NCBI GenBank assembly: GCA_015061545.1
Contig: SUWJ01000006.1
Location: 1 to 64,000, forward strand
Reading direction: 5' to 3'
Source: Lentisphaerota bacterium
Lineage (GTDB): Bacteria > Verrucomicrobiota > Lentisphaeria > Victivallales > Victivallaceae
Length of the DNA: 64,000 bases
Shown: piece by piece, positions 44,456 to 56,405 of the stretch
How the letters are laid out: the number at the start of each line of letters is the position of its first letter
How positions within the stretch are numbered: position 1 is the first letter of the stretch
Made by a program: the position numbers and the translations under genes
Notes under the pieces: generated by a model
The model's input: the letters and a program-made list of their open reading frames with translations, nothing else
What the model was told of the DNA's origin: nothing
Databases searched by the model: none

Positions 44456-46471
44456 ATGAAGAATTTTTACATTTTTACCGATGGCAATGTGCGCGGCCCT
44501 TTCCCGCCCGAAACAGTCGCTATGATGCTGGCGGACGGGCGGATCGATATGCAGACCTTGCTCTGTTCGGGCAAAGGTCAGCCCTGGATCAAGGCTGCGG
44601 ATGTAGGAGTCGTTATCGAAGAGCTGGAAAAAATCAAAAATACCGCCCAAGCGCCCAAGCCGACTCAAGTGCTTTATCCGACCAATGCCAATCACCCTGC
44701 TGCGGGAAATCCCCCGTCACCGGAAAGCGTTGCGGAATCCGCCAATACAGCTGCATCTACTCAGTCCCGCAGAGAGGTGGTATTCTACTGTCCCCATTGT
44801 TCGCAAAAGTATTCAGGCAGCGAAAGCTGGCTGGGGCGCGATATAAATTGTATCCGCTGCAGCAAAAGTTTTACTGCCATCGAAAATGCCCCCACCAAGG
44901 CGGATAGAACACCAAGTCAAAGTTCAGCTGCTCAAGCAGCCCAGTCAGTACCCAATGCCAACAGTACAGAAAATAAAGTCAGTTCTGCAACATCGGCGGG
45001 TAAAAACAGTATGGAATTTTTCGATTGGGAAAATTCCACAGGCGAACTTATCTGCCCCCATTGCTGGGTCAAATTCAACAGCGACCAGCTGCTTTACATT
45101 GCCAGCCACCCGGCATTGACCGGGGATCCTGTACTCGGCTCCATGGCGCAAAAGCGTTTTCTGCCGACGATTTTCAATGCCCGCGGTCAGGCGCTGGACG
45201 AAATGTCCCAAGCCACCAACGATCTGGCGTGTCCGCGCTGTCACTTGAAGATCCCGGCTACGATCATCGACGAAAAATCCTGCTATTTTTCGCTGGTTGG
45301 TGCGTCAGGAACGGGTAAATCCTATTATCTGGCAACGCTGCTAAATCAGGTGCGCAAAAACATGAGCAGCGATTTTGCCTGTACGCTGTTGGATGTGGAT
45401 CCGGAAATGAACGCCCTGCTGGATGGCTACGAAGAAACACTGTTCCGCAGTACCCGCCGCAGCGAAGTGGCGGTGCTGCCAAAAACTCAGGCGGCAGGCG
45501 GCGGTCACGTTACGCAGGTAACGCTGAACAATATAAGCGTGAATCTGCCCAAACCGTTTATATACGAGCTTAAACACTTTATAAGCAATCAGACAATAAA
45601 AGACTGCAATATAGTTTTTTACGATAACTCAGGCGAACTTTTTATGCCCGGAGCCGACAACCTTGCCAATCCGGGCACCCGTCATCTGGCGTGTTCAGAC
45701 GGCATAATCTTTCTCTTTGACCCGCTGAACGATGCGGTAATGCGGACTCAATGCGCTCAGGAAGAACCGCAGCTGCAAAGCGATAAGTTTGTTTACGACC
45801 AGCTTAAACTGCTTTCGGAAATGATCAGCCGTATCCGCCGCCACCGCAATTTGAATGTGGAAGAAAAGTGCCAGATCCCGCTGGTGATCGGCGTTTGCAA
45901 ACACGATGCGTGGCAGCATTTGCTCGAACGCGATATCAGCCAACTGCCCGTGCGGCAGAGCTGCGAAGGCGAACTTGCCATGCAATGGGTGCAGAATACA
46001 ATTATGGATGTATCTTTTGAACTGCGGGAATTACTGTTCAAATATGCGCCCGCGCTGGTAAATACGGCGGAAAGTTTCTTTGAAAAGGTCATCTTTATCC
46101 CGTTCAGCAACTTTGGCTGCTTCTCCTCGCCTGCCGATGCCGACGGCGGCTTGGGGGTGATTCCGGAAAAGATCAATCCTTTATGGGTGACCGAGCCGTT
46201 GATGGCATTGCTGGCGGAAAATTCGCTTATTGCCCAAGCGCCGCTGCCGGAAGGCAATATTTCTCCTGCCAATGCTCAAATCGCGGAAGATTTCATTATT
46301 CTGAAACATCCTGAAAACGGGCGGCTGATCCGTCTGCCGTGGAACTATTCCGGGGTGGTAATTACAGTCAACGGCAAACAGTACAAACTGCCGCATCACC
46401 CCAGAAGCAATCAGCAAATTCAGGATAAAGTCACTATGCTGGGCAAAATGAACAACGATCTCTGGAACTGA
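44456..46471 (+). CDS. GYF_2(DUF4339)-zinc ribbon-P-loop GTPase (Double-GTPase 2-like)
   Basis: N-term FYIFTDGNVRGPFPPETVAMMLADGRIDMQTLLCS; CPHCSQKYSG...CIRCSKSF; Walker A GASGTGKS; Walker B-like NIVFYDNSGE; G4-like GVCKHDAW. Confidence 0.8.
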   Translation: MKNFYIFTDGNVRGPFPPETVAMMLADGRIDMQTLLCSGKGQPWIKAADVGVVIEELEKIKNTAQAPKPTQVLYPTNANHPAAGNPPSPESVAESANTAASTQSRREVVFYCPHCSQKYSGSESWLGRDINCIRCSKSFTAIENAPTKADRTPSQSSAAQAAQSVPNANSTENKVSSATSAGKNSMEFFDWENSTGELICPHCWVKFNSDQLLYIASHPALTGDPVLGSMAQKRFLPTIFNARGQALDEMSQATNDLACPRCHLKIPATIIDEKSCYFSLVGASGTGKSYYLATLLNQVRKNMSSDFACTLLDVDPEMNALLDGYEETLFRSTRRSEVAVLPKTQAAGGGHVTQVTLNNISVNLPKPFIYELKHFISNQTIKDCNIVFYDNSGELFMPGADNLANPGTRHLACSDGIIFLFDPLNDAVMRTQCAQEEPQLQSDKFVYDQLKLLSEMISRIRRHRNLNVEEKCQIPLVIGVCKHDAWQHLLERDISQLPVRQSCEGELAMQWVQNTIMDVSFELRELLFKYAPALVNTAESFFEKVIFIPFSNFGCFSSPADADGGLGVIPEKINPLWVTEPLMALLAENSLIAQAPLPEGNISPANAQIAEDFIILKHPENGRLIRLPWNYSGVVITVNGKQYKLPHHPRSNQQIQDKVTMLGKMNNDLWN

Positions 46472-46496
46472 CAAGCCATAAAAATCGGGCGGAACA

Positions 46497-48653
46497 ATGT
46501 TTGAACTTATTTACACTTCAGCCCCGCGCGGACTGCTGCCGGGACGATCAGGATTCAGTACCGTGGCAATGACCAAAGGTATGCCGCCGAATTTGATCGT
46601 ACCGCTGGAAAATCTCAGCGGATATAATTTTACCTACCATAATGGTCTGCTGCCCGATGAGTTGAACCCGATTTGCTGTTATTATATAAAACTGCGTTAC
46701 GGCAACTGTCTTTATCCGATTGCAGGCAGGGTGGCGCCAAACGGATTGGATTACACCCGCCGCAATAACAAAATTGCCCATCACATATTGCTGGAAGATA
46801 CAGCTGAAATCAAAAGTTTCTGCGGCGGCGCAGCAGACTGTTTCTTGCAGTCGGGCAATATGTTCGTCCAACATTTCGATCAGGAGCCTTATGAACTGCC
46901 TTATCGGATCATTCCTGAAGGTACGCCGCCTGTAACATTGCAGAGCAATACATGGGCAAGACTGGCAGGAGATGCCGGTGCAGCGGCATTGCTTGCCAGA
47001 AAATTCCAACAGGATAAAAAATCTGTATTCTATGTCGTATATCCGGCAGGAACTGCGGTGGAAGATCTGTTGAATATGGCTGCCGAAATCTGCCGTTTAC
47101 TGGACGATCAAGCCGAAAAAAGTGATTTTACATTCAGTACATATTTTCAGGAAGACAGTGCATCAAGCGAATGTTTTCTGCGCTTCATACCGGATTTTTC
47201 GCCACTACTGAACAATTTGCGCAGATTCCATGGCAATATACTCATCGAGCTTGACGGCAAATTTCAGCTGCCTGCCGAGTGGGAAGACGATCCGCTTTGC
47301 CAGCTGGCGCGCAGCGGTGGTTTCTGGCAGGAAGAGGAAGAAGAGGCCATCATGCTTGATGCGCCTGAAATAACCGATACCGCTGCAGCTGCCGTACCGC
47401 CCAAGCCGCTATATATACCTGAATCCCAGCAGAAAATGCGGCTGAGAATGAAAAAATCGTCCGATACTGCAGCCGATGGAAATCAGCAGCCCGATAAGCC
47501 GGAGTCTGACGGAGGCTCGGCGGTGCTTCTCTCTTGCGAATACACCAACAGCCGAAGCAAACTTATATTTATGGGGTTGGCAGGATTGGTAATATTGCTG
47601 ATTCTGGGAGTGATACTCTATTTTTTCAGTATTCCTGATACCATCGAGCCGACACCGTCGGGCAAAACGCCCCCGTCTTCAGTAAAAATACCGGCAGAAA
47701 CTGATCCGAAAGTTGAAAAAACAACTCAGCCCAAGCCGACAACAGTTCCGGCAGGAAAAACCGGCGGCAACGCTGCGGCAGTTAAAGTTTCCAAGCAGCC
47801 GCCAGTTCAAACTGCAACGCAGTCAAAACAAGTTCCTGCCGCGCAGAAAAAGCAGTCAGCTCCGTCCAGGACGGCGGATAAAGGTTCGATTGCAATTGCA
47901 GATAACGGGCAGCTGCGCTATACGCCGCCAGAAAGTATCAAAAATCAACTTGACAAATTCGATATCCGCATCGGCAAGCTGGGTATGGGCGATTTCAACT
48001 CATTGTCGCTGTACACCGCCAACTGGAACAAGCTGACAGATGAATGGATATCGATAAATAAAAACGTTGCCAATTTGCAGAAAAAACTTGAAAAACAGAA
48101 AGTTACCGACGAAAAATGCAAATTTTCCGAAGTTCAGCAGCAGTATCAGGAATTACTGGAACGGGCAGATGATATTGATGACGTGGAAGATGCCGAAGAA
48201 GCGCTGAGAATTTTCAAAAATAATATCACAACTTTTATGGAATCGTTGTTCACCACCGCCAGCTCGACCGGCGATGACAGTTCGATAATGAAAAAGATTC
48301 TGCAAAAATTTCCTGACGATATTCTGGAAGAAGTGGACGACAGCAAAGATTATCTCAAAGTTGCAGCCCAAAACTGGCGTAAACGCAAAGAAGAGCTGAG
48401 AAATTTTCACACTCTAAAAAAAAATTGGGAAGACGCCCGGAAAAGGTTGGATAAACAAAATAATGCCTTGGGGAATTGTCAGCAAAAGATGCTGCACACC
48501 GCCGAGCGGATCGCGCCTGAACTTAAAAGTGCTATAATAAGTCTGACCCCATTGTCGCCGCCGAAAAAAATCAATAGCGACGGAATCAAAACAATCATTG
48601 GGAAAATGGCGGAATATATAACGATAAAAAATGTGGAAAACGTATCAAAATAA
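46497..48653 (+). CDS. GAP1-N2-like (GTPase-associated) domain - TM - Pro/Lys-rich linker - coiled-coil protein
   Basis: FELIYTSAPRGLLPGRSGFSTVAMTKGMP...LENLSGYNF and NKIAHHILL; TM LIFMGLAGLVILLILGVILYFF. Confidence 0.75.
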   Translation: MFELIYTSAPRGLLPGRSGFSTVAMTKGMPPNLIVPLENLSGYNFTYHNGLLPDELNPICCYYIKLRYGNCLYPIAGRVAPNGLDYTRRNNKIAHHILLEDTAEIKSFCGGAADCFLQSGNMFVQHFDQEPYELPYRIIPEGTPPVTLQSNTWARLAGDAGAAALLARKFQQDKKSVFYVVYPAGTAVEDLLNMAAEICRLLDDQAEKSDFTFSTYFQEDSASSECFLRFIPDFSPLLNNLRRFHGNILIELDGKFQLPAEWEDDPLCQLARSGGFWQEEEEEAIMLDAPEITDTAAAAVPPKPLYIPESQQKMRLRMKKSSDTAADGNQQPDKPESDGGSAVLLSCEYTNSRSKLIFMGLAGLVILLILGVILYFFSIPDTIEPTPSGKTPPSSVKIPAETDPKVEKTTQPKPTTVPAGKTGGNAAAVKVSKQPPVQTATQSKQVPAAQKKQSAPSRTADKGSIAIADNGQLRYTPPESIKNQLDKFDIRIGKLGMGDFNSLSLYTANWNKLTDEWISINKNVANLQKKLEKQKVTDEKCKFSEVQQQYQELLERADDIDDVEDAEEALRIFKNNITTFMESLFTTASSTGDDSSIMKKILQKFPDDILEEVDDSKDYLKVAAQNWRKRKEELRNFHTLKKNWEDARKRLDKQNNALGNCQQKMLHTAERIAPELKSAIISLTPLSPPKKINSDGIKTIIGKMAEYITIKNVENVSK

Positions 48654-48666
48654 GTAAGCAGTTGTT

Positions 48667-51600
48667 ATGAGCAAGATAGAAAATACCGTACAGGAGATGA
48701 TCCGATATTTATCGGGCAATGATTTGAGCGACACACCGCAGATGCGTCAGAACTTTGCCATATACAGCGCCGCCTGCCGCGAAGTAAACGACCTGCTGCG
48801 CGAGTGCCGCAATATGTTCGATAAAGGTTTGTATATTGATGCGCAGCGTTTTTGTTCCGACCTTAAGCCTTCGCTGTCGGAGCGGGTAAATATGCTGCTT
48901 TTGAGCCGCGAATTGCAGGAGCGCTACCGCAAGGTATGCTCGCTTTACAATTATGAATCTGCTGAACTGCCTGATGATACTATTCTGAAACGTCTGCAGG
49001 CAGCCAGCTCGGATATGACTCTGAACAGTCTGGTGCTGCATTGGCGGCAGATCGCCCGCGGTCACGATACTCAGGCAAAAATAAATCTGCTGCGGGAAAT
49101 TGTGGATAAATCGCCGCAGAATCCTCAAATCTGGATCAACAACCTGCGCACCGTGGAACAGGAATACCTGGCAGAACAACGCAACAATCTGGAAAAAGCC
49201 ATTGCCCTTGCTGATACCGAAAAGATTGTGGCAATATATAATACGCTTATTGACAAACGCCTCATAAGCCGTTTGCCTGAATATGAACTGAGCAAATACC
49301 AACCCGAAATAATTGCCGCCAATCAAAAACTGCTCCGTCAGCAGCTGAAAAATAAAAGCGACGAAATCTTTGCCGCTTACAGCAAGTTGGATCACGCTTC
49401 CTGTGCCGCCCATCTGCAGGAATACGATCAGCTGACCGCCAGCGAATACTTTGTCAGCGATGCCGATATGGAGAAGGCAATCGCCGAAGTCAGAACTTTT
49501 CTGCAGACTCATCAGCACGATATGCAGATCCAAGCGGAATTCAACCAGAAGAAAGCTGAACTGCTGCAGGCGCTGGATCAGCGCAAAAGTTATACCGTAG
49601 TGGAAAATATGTGGGAAGCGCTGCGGCAGATGGATATGCCGCTGGAAAAGAATTTGAGCAGCCGGGTGGAAAATCTGCATCAGGAGTATCTGGCGGAAAA
49701 CAACCGCAAACATATCCGCAAATGTATTCTGGGGGTGTTGTCGGTCTTGCTGCTGGCTGCAGGAGCGGCGGCAATATTTCATTTTGCCCAATCATATCAG
49801 AGCTACCGCCATCACCGCGCAGCCATGCAGGAACTGTTGCAGCAAAAGTGTTACAGCGAAGTGATCGCCCATTACAATAAAATCAACGAGCATACTCCCA
49901 GCTTACTCAAATACGGTCAACTGACGGCGCTCAAGCTGGAAGCGGAACACTATCTGCAGGAACAGGCAAGTCAAACCAGTCAGCTGGATGATCTCTGCCG
50001 ACGGGGCAATGCGGAATTGGCAAAAGCGGAACCGTCGCTGGAAACGCTGAACTATATCATTAAGGAACTCAGCACTCAAAAAAAGGATTTTATTTCCTCC
50101 GAATCCGCAGGCAGGATACGCAATCTGGAGCTTGCCGTCCGCAAATTTGAATTGGATAAACAGCAGAAAGCAGATCAGGCTTTCCAAAAGAAATTTGCCG
50201 ATACTGTAAAGCAGCTGGATAAACTTATCAACAGTTTCAAACCCAACGGCAAATACGATGAGCAAACCGTAAAACAGGCGCTGACACTGCTCAAAACCTC
50301 CGAAGCGCTGCAAAAACAATCCGGCAATATCTCAACTGAACTCTATCAAAGCAGCAAAGCTATTCTGGCAGAAAAGAATAAACAGCTCGCTTTACATATG
50401 CAAAGTGCCGAACGGGGCAGTCAGCTGCTGAAAAAATTGCAGAAGCCTGCCAATGCGGACGAATATTGCCGTGCATTGGAACAAATGCCATTATTTCTGC
50501 CGCAAATGGCTGCAGGCAGCTGGCAGGAAGCGGTAAGCAATGTAACAGAAATCCGCCAGTTGTCCGCCGGCGCCAGTTTGCCCGCCGTCAGCAACAGCCA
50601 CAGCGATTTTATTGATGCACTTAACCAGCTGCATATCACCGATAAGGATCTGCCGATGGTACAGGATGCATTAAAGCAAATGCCGCTGCCGGGAGCTGCC
50701 GAAAGTATTGATATGCAAATAAAGAAATTCGACCGCGATTTCTCAGGATTTTACAACTGTTACGAAATATCGCTCAGCGATGCAGAGGGCAGACGCTTCA
50801 ACTTTTATGCGCGGGAAGAACCGCCGCCCGCCGAACGCTCCATGTCCACGCGCAATCCCAAAAGTATCTCACTCAAACTGGAAACCGGCAACAATGCTGC
50901 CGACGGCATGATAACGTTCCGCATACGGCGCAGCAATGATAAATATTTTATTATGCCAGTGCTGCCGGAAAATACACCGCTGCAGCTCCCTGGTCGCTTT
51001 ACCAAAGTAAACAATTTCAAGCTCACCCGTCCCGAAATTCCCCAAGCGCAGCACTACACTTTTCAGCAGAAAGCCTTGAAATCGCTCAAAGCAGCTCAAA
51101 CGCTTGCCGAAAAGGAAAGCGTGCTGATCGTTTTGCTTAAAGATTTGAAAAGTCAGGATGATATGAATATTTTTGCCCGGGCGGCGCTGACCAGAGAATT
51201 GTTGAATATGCTGCCGGCGCTCTCCGGATTTTACACCGAAACGGTCAACAAATACACTATTACTCTGGATAGTGTTGCCGGGTCGCTCTACGGCAGTTTC
51301 ATGCAGCCGGAACTGGAACAGCTCAAGCCCGATCAAACCCGGGCGCTGAAAAAGTTTTTCAATGAGTTCGACCCGGCCCGTATGGAACAGTATTGCCAAA
51401 TATCGCGTCAACTCCATCGTTCGGCGCTCTCCCGCGGACTCTATCCCTGCGGAATAATTCAACAAAATGACCGCCAAAACTGGCAGGTTCATTACTTTGA
51501 CGCACAAAACAAACCCGATGAATTGTGGTTTTATGATTGGAACAGCAACAAATTCAGTATATTGCTCCAAAGCTCGCTTCAGGAAAATATCATAAAAAAC

Positions 51601-51756
51601 AGTCAGGGACTTAAATTCAAAAACGGCATGATCTTTTTTGCCCCTGCCGATGGCATAAGTACGGCAAAAATGACTGCTGAAGCGGTGGAACTCTATAAAA
51701 AAATGTTTTCAGCCCATCCGTTGTGGCCCGATTCGTGGCCGTTGAACCGCAGGTAA
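48667..51756 (+). CDS. 1029-aa single-TM coiled-coil-rich protein of unknown function
   Basis: TM CILGVLSVLLLAAGAAAIFHFA; long helical segments; C-terminal globular domain; no family recognised. Confidence 0.75.
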   Translation: MSKIENTVQEMIRYLSGNDLSDTPQMRQNFAIYSAACREVNDLLRECRNMFDKGLYIDAQRFCSDLKPSLSERVNMLLLSRELQERYRKVCSLYNYESAELPDDTILKRLQAASSDMTLNSLVLHWRQIARGHDTQAKINLLREIVDKSPQNPQIWINNLRTVEQEYLAEQRNNLEKAIALADTEKIVAIYNTLIDKRLISRLPEYELSKYQPEIIAANQKLLRQQLKNKSDEIFAAYSKLDHASCAAHLQEYDQLTASEYFVSDADMEKAIAEVRTFLQTHQHDMQIQAEFNQKKAELLQALDQRKSYTVVENMWEALRQMDMPLEKNLSSRVENLHQEYLAENNRKHIRKCILGVLSVLLLAAGAAAIFHFAQSYQSYRHHRAAMQELLQQKCYSEVIAHYNKINEHTPSLLKYGQLTALKLEAEHYLQEQASQTSQLDDLCRRGNAELAKAEPSLETLNYIIKELSTQKKDFISSESAGRIRNLELAVRKFELDKQQKADQAFQKKFADTVKQLDKLINSFKPNGKYDEQTVKQALTLLKTSEALQKQSGNISTELYQSSKAILAEKNKQLALHMQSAERGSQLLKKLQKPANADEYCRALEQMPLFLPQMAAGSWQEAVSNVTEIRQLSAGASLPAVSNSHSDFIDALNQLHITDKDLPMVQDALKQMPLPGAAESIDMQIKKFDRDFSGFYNCYEISLSDAEGRRFNFYAREEPPPAERSMSTRNPKSISLKLETGNNAADGMITFRIRRSNDKYFIMPVLPENTPLQLPGRFTKVNNFKLTRPEIPQAQHYTFQQKALKSLKAAQTLAEKESVLIVLLKDLKSQDDMNIFARAALTRELLNMLPALSGFYTETVNKYTITLDSVAGSLYGSFMQPELEQLKPDQTRALKKFFNEFDPARMEQYCQISRQLHRSALSRGLYPCGIIQQNDRQNWQVHYFDAQNKPDELWFYDWNSNKFSILLQSSLQENIIKNSQGLKFKNGMIFFAPADGISTAKMTAEAVELYKKMFSAHPLWPDSWPLNRR

Positions 51757-51763
51757 GAGTACT

Positions 51764-52723
51764 ATGCAAGACCGATTTTTCATCCGCGACACAGATAATA
51801 TAATAACCGGGCCGTTTACCCGGCAGCATTTGCTGGAGCAATTCAACTCTGCCAAACTGTCGGTAAACGAAGTTGTGCTTTCCGACGATAAGTCAACATG
51901 GCTTCCGCCCGAAACACTGTTATCGGAATTGATTCCTGAAAATCCGGATAATGTTGCAGAATTCACCCCGGAGCCGCCGCCCGCGGCAACCGATAACTCC
52001 GACGCCGAAGCCGATGCCGGGGCGGAAGCCCCCCAGCCGCTTGAAAATGCGGATACGCAAGCAGAAAAAGAACCTGTTGCCGAAAATATTTGTCATGCTG
52101 ACCGCACATTCAAACGGCTGGCAGGCGATACCGTGGCTGTACTCTTTAACAGTCAGAGTTATTTCTACCGTCTGGCGGTCAAAGGCCCCAGCGCCATGCT
52201 GACTGCCGGTTTGCTGGCAATATCCGGCAGCGTAATGATAACGCTGCTGGGCGGAGTGCTTTTTGCCGGAAGGTACGAAACAGGAACGGCATTATTCTTC
52301 ATCCGCAGTTTTGTTCAATGTATTGCTTCAGGGATATTGCTGTGGCTGTTCAATCTTATGATAAATGAGTTCAGCAAATCAGGCAAAAAGCAGAAATATT
52401 ATCAGATGGAAACCGATTTTCTATCTGCCATGCTTGGCAATATGAATATCTCGCTGCTGGTGATGATATTTAATGCCACACTTTTTATGTGGAACAGAAA
52501 TTTGTATCAGATGAACCGGATTCAGAGCATTCTGCTGGCGGCAGCAGTGCTGTTTATGGCAATGTACGTTCTGGGCAACACGTTTCTGCTGCTGCGGATC
52601 AATCTGCGCAAAAATGCGCAGCTGCGGCGCTTTACGTCGGCGGTGCTGGCGGCAGCAGAAATGTGGGCAATAGTGCTGTTATCTTACGCGCTTCTGCACC
52701 CGATTTACCGTAATATATTATAA
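51764..52723 (+). CDS. GYF_2(DUF4339)-multi-TM membrane protein
   Basis: N-term DRFFIRDTDNIITGPFTRQHLLEQFNSAKLSVNEVVLSDDKSTWLP; about four TM segments at the C-terminus. Confidence 0.75.
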   Translation: MQDRFFIRDTDNIITGPFTRQHLLEQFNSAKLSVNEVVLSDDKSTWLPPETLLSELIPENPDNVAEFTPEPPPAATDNSDAEADAGAEAPQPLENADTQAEKEPVAENICHADRTFKRLAGDTVAVLFNSQSYFYRLAVKGPSAMLTAGLLAISGSVMITLLGGVLFAGRYETGTALFFIRSFVQCIASGILLWLFNLMINEFSKSGKKQKYYQMETDFLSAMLGNMNISLLVMIFNATLFMWNRNLYQMNRIQSILLAAAVLFMAMYVLGNTFLLLRINLRKNAQLRRFTSAVLAAAEMWAIVLLSYALLHPIYRNIL

Positions 52724-52744
52724 ACAATAAAAAGGTTTGCAATC

Positions 52745-53602
52745 ATGAAACTCTCTTATGCTAAAAACGATATTGAACGGATGTGCGGCTTCCGCAGCAA
52801 AAAGTTCACCATGGTCAACTATGTTTTTACTTTTATTCTGGGACTGCTTTTGACCTTGATCATTTATCTGCTGCTGCTGCCGTTTTACGGCAAAGGTCTG
52901 GAGTGGATCGATATGTTTTTTCACGGCGGAGCCAAAGATCGGTCAAGTATTCCCTATTACACAGTATTTCTCAGCTGCTGGTCAATGGCAATATTGTTTA
53001 TCAAACTCTGCAAATTGAAAAATCAGCGCAAAGCCTTTGAGTTGTCGATTCTGCCGGAAGATCCGAACTTTGTACTCTCGCCCCGCACCGCACGGGAAAT
53101 ACTTGACCGGATCTATGAATCGGTGGATCAACCCGGCTGCTATGTGCTGCTGGACAGAATCGACCTGGCGCTGGGCAATTTGAAAAATCTGGGCAATGTC
53201 AACGCGGTTTCGGAGTGTTTGAACTGTCAGGCGGGTAATGATGAAGGATATCTTGCCAGCAGCTACACCATTCTTAAAGGCTTTATCTGGGCAATTCCGG
53301 TACTGGGTTTTATCGGGACTGTGGTGGGGCTGTCAGAAGCAGTCGGCGGCTTCGGCAATGTAGTGTCGCAAGGAGCGGATATTGCGGAGCTGAAAACTGC
53401 TCTTTCGGGTGTTACCGGCGGGCTTGCCATCGCTTTTGAAACCACGCTTATCGCGCTGGTGCTGGCGTTGATCGTGCAGCTGACCGCCAAGTTTGTCCTC
53501 AGCGAAGAGGAAGCGTTTCTGGATGAATGTGCCGCTTACTGCAACCGCAACATTGTCGCCAAGATGAAAAATATTTATCTGGCTAACAGCGAAAATATTT
53601 GA
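52745..53602 (+). CDS. MotA/TolQ/ExbB-family proton channel subunit
   Basis: AIPVLGFIGTVVGLSEAVGGFGN...ELKTALSGVTGGLAIAFETTLIALVLALIVQL. Confidence 0.92.
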   Translation: MKLSYAKNDIERMCGFRSKKFTMVNYVFTFILGLLLTLIIYLLLLPFYGKGLEWIDMFFHGGAKDRSSIPYYTVFLSCWSMAILFIKLCKLKNQRKAFELSILPEDPNFVLSPRTAREILDRIYESVDQPGCYVLLDRIDLALGNLKNLGNVNAVSECLNCQAGNDEGYLASSYTILKGFIWAIPVLGFIGTVVGLSEAVGGFGNVVSQGADIAELKTALSGVTGGLAIAFETTLIALVLALIVQLTAKFVLSEEEAFLDECAAYCNRNIVAKMKNIYLANSENI

Positions 53603-53603
53603 T

Positions 53604-54449
53604 ATGCCCCGCAGCAACGAAGACGAATCACCGATTTCCCTGTTCAGTTTTCAGGATATAATCACCTCCATCACCGGGATCATGTTTCTGGTGGTGCTGC
53701 TGCTGGTGATGATAATGCTGAGCAGTTTTGAAAAAAACACTTCCGATCCAGTCGCGGTGGAAACTTGTCGTTTGACGCAGGAATTATCTGAACTCAAGAA
53801 AAAGCTGCAATCGCTGCAAAACAATCAAACGGAGCTGGCAGAGCAACTTGCCAAATTAAAAAAACTTACCCCGGCAGAACTTGCCGCCAGAAAAATGGAG
53901 CTGCAGCAGGCAATTCACAGCCGGACACTTGAGCTGAAAAACCTTATACAGCAGTTGAAAATCCAGCAGGATAAACTCTCACTGATTCAACAAACATTGG
54001 AAAATCAGCAGAAACAATTGACCTTTCAGCAGGAAGAAAGCATTAAATTCAAGGCGCGTCAAGTTGAAATCAAACGGGAAATCGCTCAACTTGAAAAAAT
54101 ACTCCGCCAGCAGGAAAAACTTATGCAGTTTACGATTCAAAGTTCCAGCAGTAAATCGCCAATTTTGCTGGAGTTGAGCAAAAGCGGCATCCAACTGTTC
54201 TATCCAGATAAAAATCAACTGCACGATATGCGCAGCAGCAAAGGCGATTTTGCTGAATCACAATCGCAATTTGAATCTTTTATTGCCCCAATACCGCCTG
54301 AACAATATTACTTTTGTATAACTGTTAAACCGGAAGCCTTCCGCTATGCAGCAAACGTGGCTGCGCTTTTGCAGAAAAATCTCTTCGAGCGAGGCATTGA
54401 ACTGCTGCCCAACGATCAGATCAGTATTATGGGAGGCAACACGCCATGA
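53604..54449 (+). CDS. MotB/ExbD-like subunit 1 (single N-terminal TM, coiled coil, C-terminal periplasmic domain)
   Basis: FQDIITSITGIMFLVVLLLVMIML has Asp just before/within the TM, as in ExbD/TolR/MotB; long Gln-rich coiled coil. Confidence 0.65.
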   Translation: MPRSNEDESPISLFSFQDIITSITGIMFLVVLLLVMIMLSSFEKNTSDPVAVETCRLTQELSELKKKLQSLQNNQTELAEQLAKLKKLTPAELAARKMELQQAIHSRTLELKNLIQQLKIQQDKLSLIQQTLENQQKQLTFQQEESIKFKARQVEIKREIAQLEKILRQQEKLMQFTIQSSSSKSPILLELSKSGIQLFYPDKNQLHDMRSSKGDFAESQSQFESFIAPIPPEQYYFCITVKPEAFRYAANVAALLQKNLFERGIELLPNDQISIMGGNTP

Positions 54450-55390
54450 GCAAAAGAAGTTATCGTAAATCCGAAGATGAGTCCAGCCTGGAACTGCTGC
54501 TGGATACCATGTGCAACACCTTTGGCGGGGTTATGTTTATTGCCATTTCCATATTTGTTATAATCTCGGGCATGACACAGATCGACAATGCCTTGGAGCA
54601 GCAGAACACCGATCCGGAAGAACTGCGGCGGAACATTACCGAACTGCAAAGTGTGCTGCAACAGGCAATGCACCAGCTGGATATCCAAACTGAGGAGTTG
54701 AAAATACGGCAAAAGGAATCCGACTCACCGCTGATGCAGGAAACCGTTCAGCTGGAACAACTGCTTAAAGAATTGGATTTGAAAAAACAATCCACCCTTC
54801 TGGCGGTGACTGGTGCCGACAAAAGTCTGCAGCAGGCAACTGCACAGCAGTTGAAATTGCAGGAGCAGCTGAAAGCACTTGCCGCCGAAAACTCTGCAGA
54901 AGAAATTCAGCTTATGGAACTTACCCAAAAGTTGAAAAATTTGCAGTATCAGCAAATTCCCGCTCAGCAAATGGTCTTCAAGGTGATGCAGAGCAGCGAA
55001 AAACATCCGTTTTTTATCGTCATGCAAAACGGCAAGGTCTGGCCGGTCGGGCCGTGGAAAACGCCCGATGGGGACACGCCCGATGCAGCTGTAATAACGG
55101 AGAAAATCGCGCAGGATAATATCCAAATCTACCGCTTCAAGGTAAAACCTGACACGGGAATCGAAGTTTTGGCGGGCGATGACTTATCAAGTCAGTTTGT
55201 CAAATTGCTGAAAAAGATCCCCGCCGATCGGGTACCTAAATTTTTTATTCCGCCTGCCAGCGCTGAAACGGCGTTCAAAATGCGGGAAATATTGAAAAAA
55301 CAGAATATTCAGCATGGTTTGACGCTGGCACCGGATGACAGCACACCGCTGAGTTATCAGTATTATTCGGAAGTTAAATATGAATATTGA
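54446..55390 (+). CDS. MotB/ExbD-like subunit 2 (single N-terminal TM, coiled coil, C-terminal periplasmic domain)
   Basis: LELLLDTMCNTFGGVMFIAISIFVIIS; coiled coil; ATGA overlap with the preceding gene. Confidence 0.65.
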   Translation: MSKRSYRKSEDESSLELLLDTMCNTFGGVMFIAISIFVIISGMTQIDNALEQQNTDPEELRRNITELQSVLQQAMHQLDIQTEELKIRQKESDSPLMQETVQLEQLLKELDLKKQSTLLAVTGADKSLQQATAQQLKLQEQLKALAAENSAEEIQLMELTQKLKNLQYQQIPAQQMVFKVMQSSEKHPFFIVMQNGKVWPVGPWKTPDGDTPDAAVITEKIAQDNIQIYRFKVKPDTGIEVLAGDDLSSQFVKLLKKIPADRVPKFFIPPASAETAFKMREILKKQNIQHGLTLAPDDSTPLSYQYYSEVKYEY

Positions 55391-56405
55391 ACCTGACAAA
55401 CATTGGTTTCGTCCATTCGGATACTTGATTATTTGCCTTTTCCTGCTCCTGATCTGGGCTGGAATCAGCGAAGGCTGCCGTAAAAATGATTCTCTGCCCG
55501 GCGCAGGCATGGTCAGCACCGGCGGCAGCTCAGTCGATAAAAAAGGCAGCGGCAACAGCGATTCCGGCGATGGTCCGGGCGCCGGGATTGATGGCAAGGG
55601 CGATGGTTCCGGCGGTAAATCCGCCGCTCAATCAGGCACGGTAAAAGTTGCGGCAAACACCAACGCGCCCCCGACTGCTGAAAGTAATTCATCCTCAATG
55701 GCAGCTCAATCATCTGCCAATACCAATGGTACTGCGCAAACAGTAAAGCTGCAGGCGATTGAATCGCTGACTTCGCCCCGGCAGCAAAGCGCCTCCAATG
55801 ATTTGCCGCCGGCGGATTACAACAGCAACAGCGCCGGTCGCAAAGGGTTTTACGGCATAGCCTCGCACAGCAAAGGCAGAGTATTGTTTATCATTGATAC
55901 TTCAGGTTCCATGGCAGGACCTTCGGGGGAATTTCCCGGCAAGAGCCGTATTGATGTATTGAAAATGGAACTGAAAAAGTATATCTTCGGCGGTCAGAAA
56001 CTCACCCCAGCCAGCTACAAACGCGGCGGAAGTTTTGTAATAGCCGCCTTCAACTCCTCCACTACATTCTTTCCCGATAATGGTTCGTGCCGCAACAGCA
56101 ATCACAGCGATATGAAAAAGACGGAAGAATTTATCGACAGTTTGCAAGCCAACGGCGGAACTATGATGCGCGATGCCTGGCAGCGCTCCTTTGAGTTGAT
56201 AAAAAAGCAGAAAATAGATACGGTTTTCTTTCTGACCGATGGCGAGGCGGGCGATGGGTTCAGCAGTAAATGGCTGTTGGATGAGCTGAAAGAAATTTCA
56301 CATACAAAACCTGTGGTGCATTGTATAAGACTGGGTGGAAGAAAAAATAAAGATATGGAAATGATAGCAAAAAAGCGCAATGGCAAATTCATTGCGCTTC
56401 CGTAA
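55380..56405 (+). CDS. membrane-anchored von Willebrand factor type A (vWA) domain protein
   Basis: N-term TM, Gly/Ser-rich linker, MIDAS motif FIIDTSGSMAG, NGGTMMRDAWQRS, FFLTDGEAGDG. Confidence 0.9.
   Translation: MNIEPDKHWFRPFGYLIICLFLLLIWAGISEGCRKNDSLPGAGMVSTGGSSVDKKGSGNSDSGDGPGAGIDGKGDGSGGKSAAQSGTVKVAANTNAPPTAESNSSSMAAQSSANTNGTAQTVKLQAIESLTSPRQQSASNDLPPADYNSNSAGRKGFYGIASHSKGRVLFIIDTSGSMAGPSGEFPGKSRIDVLKMELKKYIFGGQKLTPASYKRGGSFVIAAFNSSTTFFPDNGSCRNSNHSDMKKTEEFIDSLQANGGTMMRDAWQRSFELIKKQKIDTVFFLTDGEAGDGFSSKWLLDELKEISHTKPVVHCIRLGGRKNKDMEMIAKKRNGKFIALP
56373..56399 (-). terminator. minus-strand terminator for the 56438-57388 gene, lying inside the vWA coding sequence
   Basis: perfect 10-bp arms AAGCGCAATG/CATTGCGCTT; minus-strand exit is TTTTTTGC. 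Confidence 0.65.

Follow-up and report, generated by a model that had tools for sequence, protein, structure and literature searches.

Gene content of the operon

The analyzed window was a 64,000-nucleotide stretch of DNA from a Lentisphaerota bacterium (GenBank assembly GCA_015061545.1, contig SUWJ01000006.1, positions 1 to 64,000 of the forward strand). The genome is a 2.35-Mb assembly in 53 contigs. An operon at 44456-56405 (+) was found to encode a MotA/TolQ/ExbB-family subunit (A) followed by two different single-pass membrane proteins (B1 and B2), together with proteins of a GAP1-N2/DO-GTPase-like module. In order, its features are as follows.

44456-46471 (+), protein with a GYF_2 domain, zinc ribbons, and a DO-GTPase2-like P-loop region, a predicted cytosolic switch
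46497-48653 (+), GAP1 protein (GAP1-N2 and GAP1-M) with one transmembrane (TM) helix (residues ~356-374) and then a predicted periplasmic coil
48667-51756 (+), 1029-aa protein with one TM helix (residues ~353-371), a conserved core component of unknown fold
51764-52723 (+), accessory protein with a GYF-like N-terminus and 4 to 5 TM helices
52745-53602 (+), A, 285 aa, with 4 hydrophobic helices and no long C-terminal tail
53604-54449 (+), B1, 281 aa, candidate axle subunit with TM Asp18 in an FQDII motif, a coil, and a C-terminal domain predicted to be TolR/ExbD-like
54446-55390 (+), B2, 314 aa, candidate axle subunit with TM Asp20 in an LLLDTMCN motif, a coil, and a C-terminal domain homologous to that of B1
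54446-54449 (+), ATGA stop/start overlap between B1 and B2, likely translational coupling
55380-56405 (+), accessory protein with an N-terminal TM helix and a predicted periplasmic VWA domain (DTSGSM)

The assignment of A was supported by a Pfam match to MotA_ExbB (PF01618, E = 1.5e-8; 34.9 bits against a cut-off of 22.9). The GAP1 protein also exceeded the Pfam cut-offs (GAP1-N2, 1e-16; GAP1-M, 1.8e-6), and the VWA protein matched VWA_3 (5.5e-7) and VWA_2 (2.2e-6). For the first protein of the operon, the matches to GYF_2 (9.7e-5) and DO-GTPase2 (0.0012; 19 bits against a cut-off of 27) were below the curated cut-offs, as was DO-GTPase2 in the Victivallis vadensis orthologue (1.1e-5, 25.7 bits; GYF_2, 6.3e-8), although CxxC pairs and GxxGTGKS were visible in the sequence. 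No Pfam family over its cut-off was found for the 1029-aa protein, and the GYF-like character of the 51764-52723 product rests on sequence only, with no Pfam hit. Promoter and terminator scans gave results near the shuffle level.

The initial annotation had described two dissimilar proteins downstream of a TolQ/ExbB protein, each with an Asp at the TM entry, a long coiled coil, and a C-terminal domain, and overlapping by 4 nt. This description was confirmed, although it did not mention the larger operon. Both proteins have a short Lys/Arg-containing N-terminus, one TM helix, and an Asp at its entry. AlphaFold monomer models (mean pLDDT of 89 for B1 and 88 for B2) showed a TM helix, long helices (residues 49-86 and 90-171 in B1; 57-91 and 95-169 in B2), and a folded C-terminal alpha/beta domain.

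Conservation of the A-B1-B2 triplet

In 61 genomes searched (the genome itself and relatives), A occurred in 16, and the loci retrieved carried A, B1, and B2. In a collection of named genomes, 403 relatives of A were counted and the best 80 were kept. These came from Lentisphaerota, Planctomycetota, Verrucomicrobiota, and Desulfamplus, including V. vadensis DSM 14823, the complete genome WC36, Botrimarina colliarenosi, and Desulfamplus magnetovallimortis. Of the 80 loci, 74 carried both B1 and B2, and two more ended at a contig edge. The TM Asp was kept in 75 of 76 B1 and 73 of 74 B2 proteins. The two exceptions were a B1 with Ser (FQS; locus L112, 4382-5233) and a B2 with Gly (LLG; locus L085, 11686-12612), and each of these loci kept the Asp of the partner. 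In A, the pore-lining Thr residues of the last two TM helices were invariant or nearly so (Thr192, 68/68; Thr233, 67/68; Thr234, 68/68). A pseudogene pair or a frameshifted single gene was considered for B1 and B2 and rejected, as the two are distinct and conserved in 74 loci.

In an even draw of 240 genomes of the phylum, 16 had A at E < 1e-75, and the same 16 had B1 (E < 1e-20) and B2 (E < 1e-30). The only further strong B2 hit was a fragment at a contig edge. Four of the 80 loci had A without a B nearby. In three of these genomes, B1 and B2 were encoded elsewhere, adjacent in one and on different contigs in two (one of which has a B1 ORF that looks shortened), and the fourth locus was on a short contig. 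In a further locus (L040), B2 was separated from B1 by other genes of the system. Thus, both B proteins were kept even when unlinked.

Of 47 loci with at least 9.5 kb upstream, 46 had GAP1, 46 had the 1029-aa protein, and 44 had the GTPase-like protein, so the predicted motor is a constant part of this GAP1-N2 subtype. The GYF-TM protein (homologues in 42 of 80 loci) and the VWA protein (22 of 80) were accessory. A second A-B1-B2 triplet lies on another contig of the same genome (contig C48; locus L003, 10215-12747), with the same order and 4-nt overlap but without GTPase, GAP1, or VWA genes beside it, and the same triplet type occurs in four other genomes of the genus (loci L041 to L044).

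Relationship between B1 and B2

B1 and B2 are indeed dissimilar in pairwise comparison (about 16% identity), but their profiles are homologous. The profile comparison gave 99.6% (E = 1e-24) over the full length and 97.3% (E = 2e-11) for the C-terminal domain alone, so this is not a coiled-coil artifact. In the weak TM-only alignment, Asp aligned with Asp. When the C-terminal domain of B1 was compared with 999 chains in a VIA fold search, the first match was Escherichia coli TolR (5by4; Z = 8.4, rmsd 3.3, 84 aligned), with ExbD at Z = 7.2 (8pek) and another TolR at 6.8 (2jwk). These values are near the level where chance matches occur, and unrelated folds reach 6 to 8, so this is moderate evidence. 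For B2, the corresponding search was inconclusive and contained no ExbD/TolR row, although its domain is homologous to that of B1.

Neither window protein matched Pfam ExbD (PF02472) at E <= 1. A profile of local ExbD proteins aligned with B1 and B2 in the same register in the C-terminal domain but without significance (probability 3 to 13%). Foldseek searches with the whole B1 and B2 models gave only weak matches to RNase H-like folds such as retroviral integrase (none at E < 0.001), which were treated as a common arrangement and not as kinship. A PDB sequence search with B1 returned coiled coils, and a search with A returned nothing.

The distance from the Asp to the C-terminal domain is nearly equal in B1 and B2 (167 and 168 residues in the window) and changed together across loci. 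Over 68 loci, r was 0.85, and the mean difference was 4.0 residues, compared with 10.1 in shuffles. On phylogenetic contrasts, r was 0.74, with 18 of the 20 largest contrasts in the same direction, whereas C-terminal domain lengths and A length showed no significant correlation. Length matching could partly reflect a shared envelope geometry, but the second triplet in the same genome has different lengths (153 and 162), so envelope width alone does not set them. In addition, a 4-nt overlap between B1 and B2 was possible in 32 of 73 related loci and a 1-nt overlap in 15. However, the net charges of the B1 and B2 coils were not opposite (r = +0.46), so electrostatics gave no support for pairing.

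Further evidence came from sister families. The TM segments were read by eye in 36 loci of other A subfamilies, from verrucomicrobial genomes and two cyanobacterial plasmids. Of these, 31 had two B proteins; the first lacked the Asp in 21 (Ser, Cys, Asn, or Ala), while the second had it in 31. In one such family, first-B relatives with and without the Asp aligned without gaps (PFLDIL in locus L143, PFLSIL in L142). Some of these subfamilies (loci L142 to L150 and L156 to L167) have an A of 450 to 570 aa, in some cases with an N-terminal zinc ribbon. In two more loci of another subfamily (L151 and L175), the first B had LPFLSIML, without Asp, and the second had SALVDIIS, with Asp. On Anabaena and Microcystis plasmids (L005, 9845-12424, and L006, 9536-12136), an A with a long cytosolic tail and two B proteins, the first without the TM Asp, lies next to type III-B CRISPR genes and a viperin-family gene (Anabaena) or helicase/methylase/SLATT genes (Microcystis), which looks like a defense island motor. 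One A subfamily (L153 and L170 to L173) has two B proteins with nearly the same TM motif (SLSFLDxICCGFGA), both with Asp, possibly a recent duplication stage. Planctomycete pairs of B1-like (745 to 857 aa) and B2-like proteins were also seen (L138, 11905-15285, and L141, 2184-5827), the B1-like protein having Ala (L138) or Asp (L141) at the site; in L141, an A-like gene (723-2144) is nearby on the other strand. Ordinary ExbD genes occurred in tandem pairs or triples in four genomes (genome and contig G045:C519, G041:C63, G042:C68, and G039:C6), so unlike-B pairs may also exist in classical ExbBD systems.

An Asp-less protein cannot make a conducting homodimer by the known mechanism, and pairing with the Asp-bearing partner is therefore the simplest reading. 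An alternative is that A assembles with B1:B1 or with B2:B2, giving two specialized stators from one ring gene, as one MotA can serve two MotB-type proteins. Both B proteins keep an Asp in the window's type (type I), each resembles a complete B subunit, and AglRQ and AglRS were said to be theoretically able to form separate channels (PMC9389320). However, the linked changes in shaft length, the tight overlap, the 1:1 co-occurrence, and the Asp-less first B proteins of the sister families speak against it. We consider this alternative unlikely. As for homodimers with separate A subunits, the complete WC36 chromosome has one A, one B1, and one full-length B2, as does V. vadensis, leaving no second A of this family for a separate motor.

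It is also possible, but less likely still, that only one of the two is the true axle and the other is a transducer outside the ring, in the manner of TolA with TolQR or TonB with ExbBD (5:2:n). TolQRA and ExbBD-TonB likewise appear to pair one A with two single-TM periplasmic proteins, only one of which has the Asp, and this would fit the Asp-less first B proteins. In type I, though, both carry the Asp at the same TM site, and B1 and B2 are homologous in the C-terminal domain, which TolA/TolR and TonB/ExbD, to our knowledge, are not.

A putative motor with a heterodimeric axle

The best explanation of these results, which we favor with reasonable but not high confidence, is that A, B1, and B2 form one proton-driven motor of the MotAB/ExbBD/ZorAB class, in which a ring of A, presumably five, surrounds an axle made of one B1 and one B2. 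The initial annotation had proposed that the two B positions could be filled by different proteins, with the lever in the periplasmic coiled coil rather than in a long A-subunit tail. This interpretation was supported, and the absence of a long cytosolic tail in A fits the lever idea, but heterodimerization and the 5:1:1 assembly are inferred without a multimer model, co-purification, or structure. In this inferred mechanism, B1 and B2 pair through their TM helices and a parallel coiled coil of about 120 residues (about 18 nm if straight, estimated from the helix lengths) that carries the two C-terminal domains toward the peptidoglycan or outer membrane. Proton flow past the Asps would turn the ring against the axle, the cytosolic DO-GTPase-like/GAP1 pair would gate the motor, and the large TM protein and the periplasmic VWA protein would couple it to its load. 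Gating by the GTPase rests on gene linkage only.

The biological task is unknown. A conflict or defense role triggered by contact, phage, or envelope stress, as proposed for GAP1-N2 systems, is our first guess, about as likely as not. A related possibility is that A-B1-B2 is a homologous but nonrotating device, a gated proton leak opened by the GTPase to depolarize an infected cell. GAP1-N2 systems are predicted conflict systems whose shared effectors include the SLATT pore-forming domain (PMC7159879), and the distribution is patchy (16 of 61 genomes). However, the conserved long coil and folded periplasmic domains in both B proteins are not needed for a simple leak, and this explanation seems improbable.

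The nearest functional parallel is the AglRQS gliding motor of Myxococcus, in which one MotA/TolQ-type protein (AglR) occurs with two B-type proteins (AglQ and AglS) in one cluster, and for which a 2022 review states that homo- or heterodimer is not known (PMC9389320). AglQ and AglS are short ExbD/TolR Pfam members (162 and 194 aa; PMC3169522), whereas B1 and B2 are ~300 aa with a long coil, have no Pfam ExbD match, and lie in a GAP1-N2 operon. Zorya also combines a MotA-type channel with a TM-Asp B subunit in a conflict system, and weak ZorA/ZorB profile hits were obtained, the ZorB hit covering the TM and coil only. However, ZorA5B2 uses identical ZorB, a Pal-like peptidoglycan-binding domain, and a long cytosolic ZorA tail (PMC11890865). 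Here, A ends about 40 residues after its last TM helix, no OmpA Pfam hit was found for B1 or B2 at E <= 1, and no ZorC-E was seen among the neighbors, so membership in Zorya was rejected. TolQR and ExbBD share the ring subunit family and the TolR/ExbD-like domain of B1 but have one B type, a short linker, and separate TolA/TonB. GldM forms an 18-nm shaft (PMC9389320), but it is a homodimer of several periplasmic domains without a GTPase context.

As reported previously, GAP1-N2 systems are predicted conflict systems with tubulin, HSP70, or kinase themes, and planctomycete versions have paired GYF domains (Kaur et al. 2020, PMC7159879). GAP1-N2, GAP1-M, a zinc-ribbon protein that may be a DO-GTPase, a GYF and TM-rich protein, and VWA are shared with the present operon, but no FNIII hit was found in the window proteins or in two orthologues of the 1029-aa protein. 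The main text of that paper does not mention MotA or a proton channel, and no other paper on the system was found in a search that excluded preprints and most subscription papers. As far as that literature shows, A-B1-B2 is an undescribed constant module within GAP1-N2 systems, and it differs from the solved or modeled ion-driven 5:2 motors known to us in its two unlike B proteins.

In type I, both B proteins carry an Asp; in sister families in which only one does, the motors would run on a single proton site. It is possible, though we hold this only tentatively, that heteromeric-axle (5:1:1) proton motors are an ancient, widespread class in Verrucomicrobiota, Planctomycetota, Lentisphaerota, and cyanobacterial plasmids, and that in several of its families the motor works with a single proton site and an inherently asymmetric cycle (about 72 instead of 36 degrees per proton).

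The solved or modeled ion-driven 5:2 motors known to us have two identical axle subunits, and current models of how they step rest on that symmetry. A conserved pair of unlike, length-matched candidate axle proteins, with relatives in which one has lost the proton site, offers a natural test of whether two sites are needed and what asymmetry does. It also ties a putative proton motor to the GAP1-N2/DO-GTPase systems, whose outputs are largely unknown, and gives the unresolved AglRQS question a clean model in cultured species such as V. vadensis.
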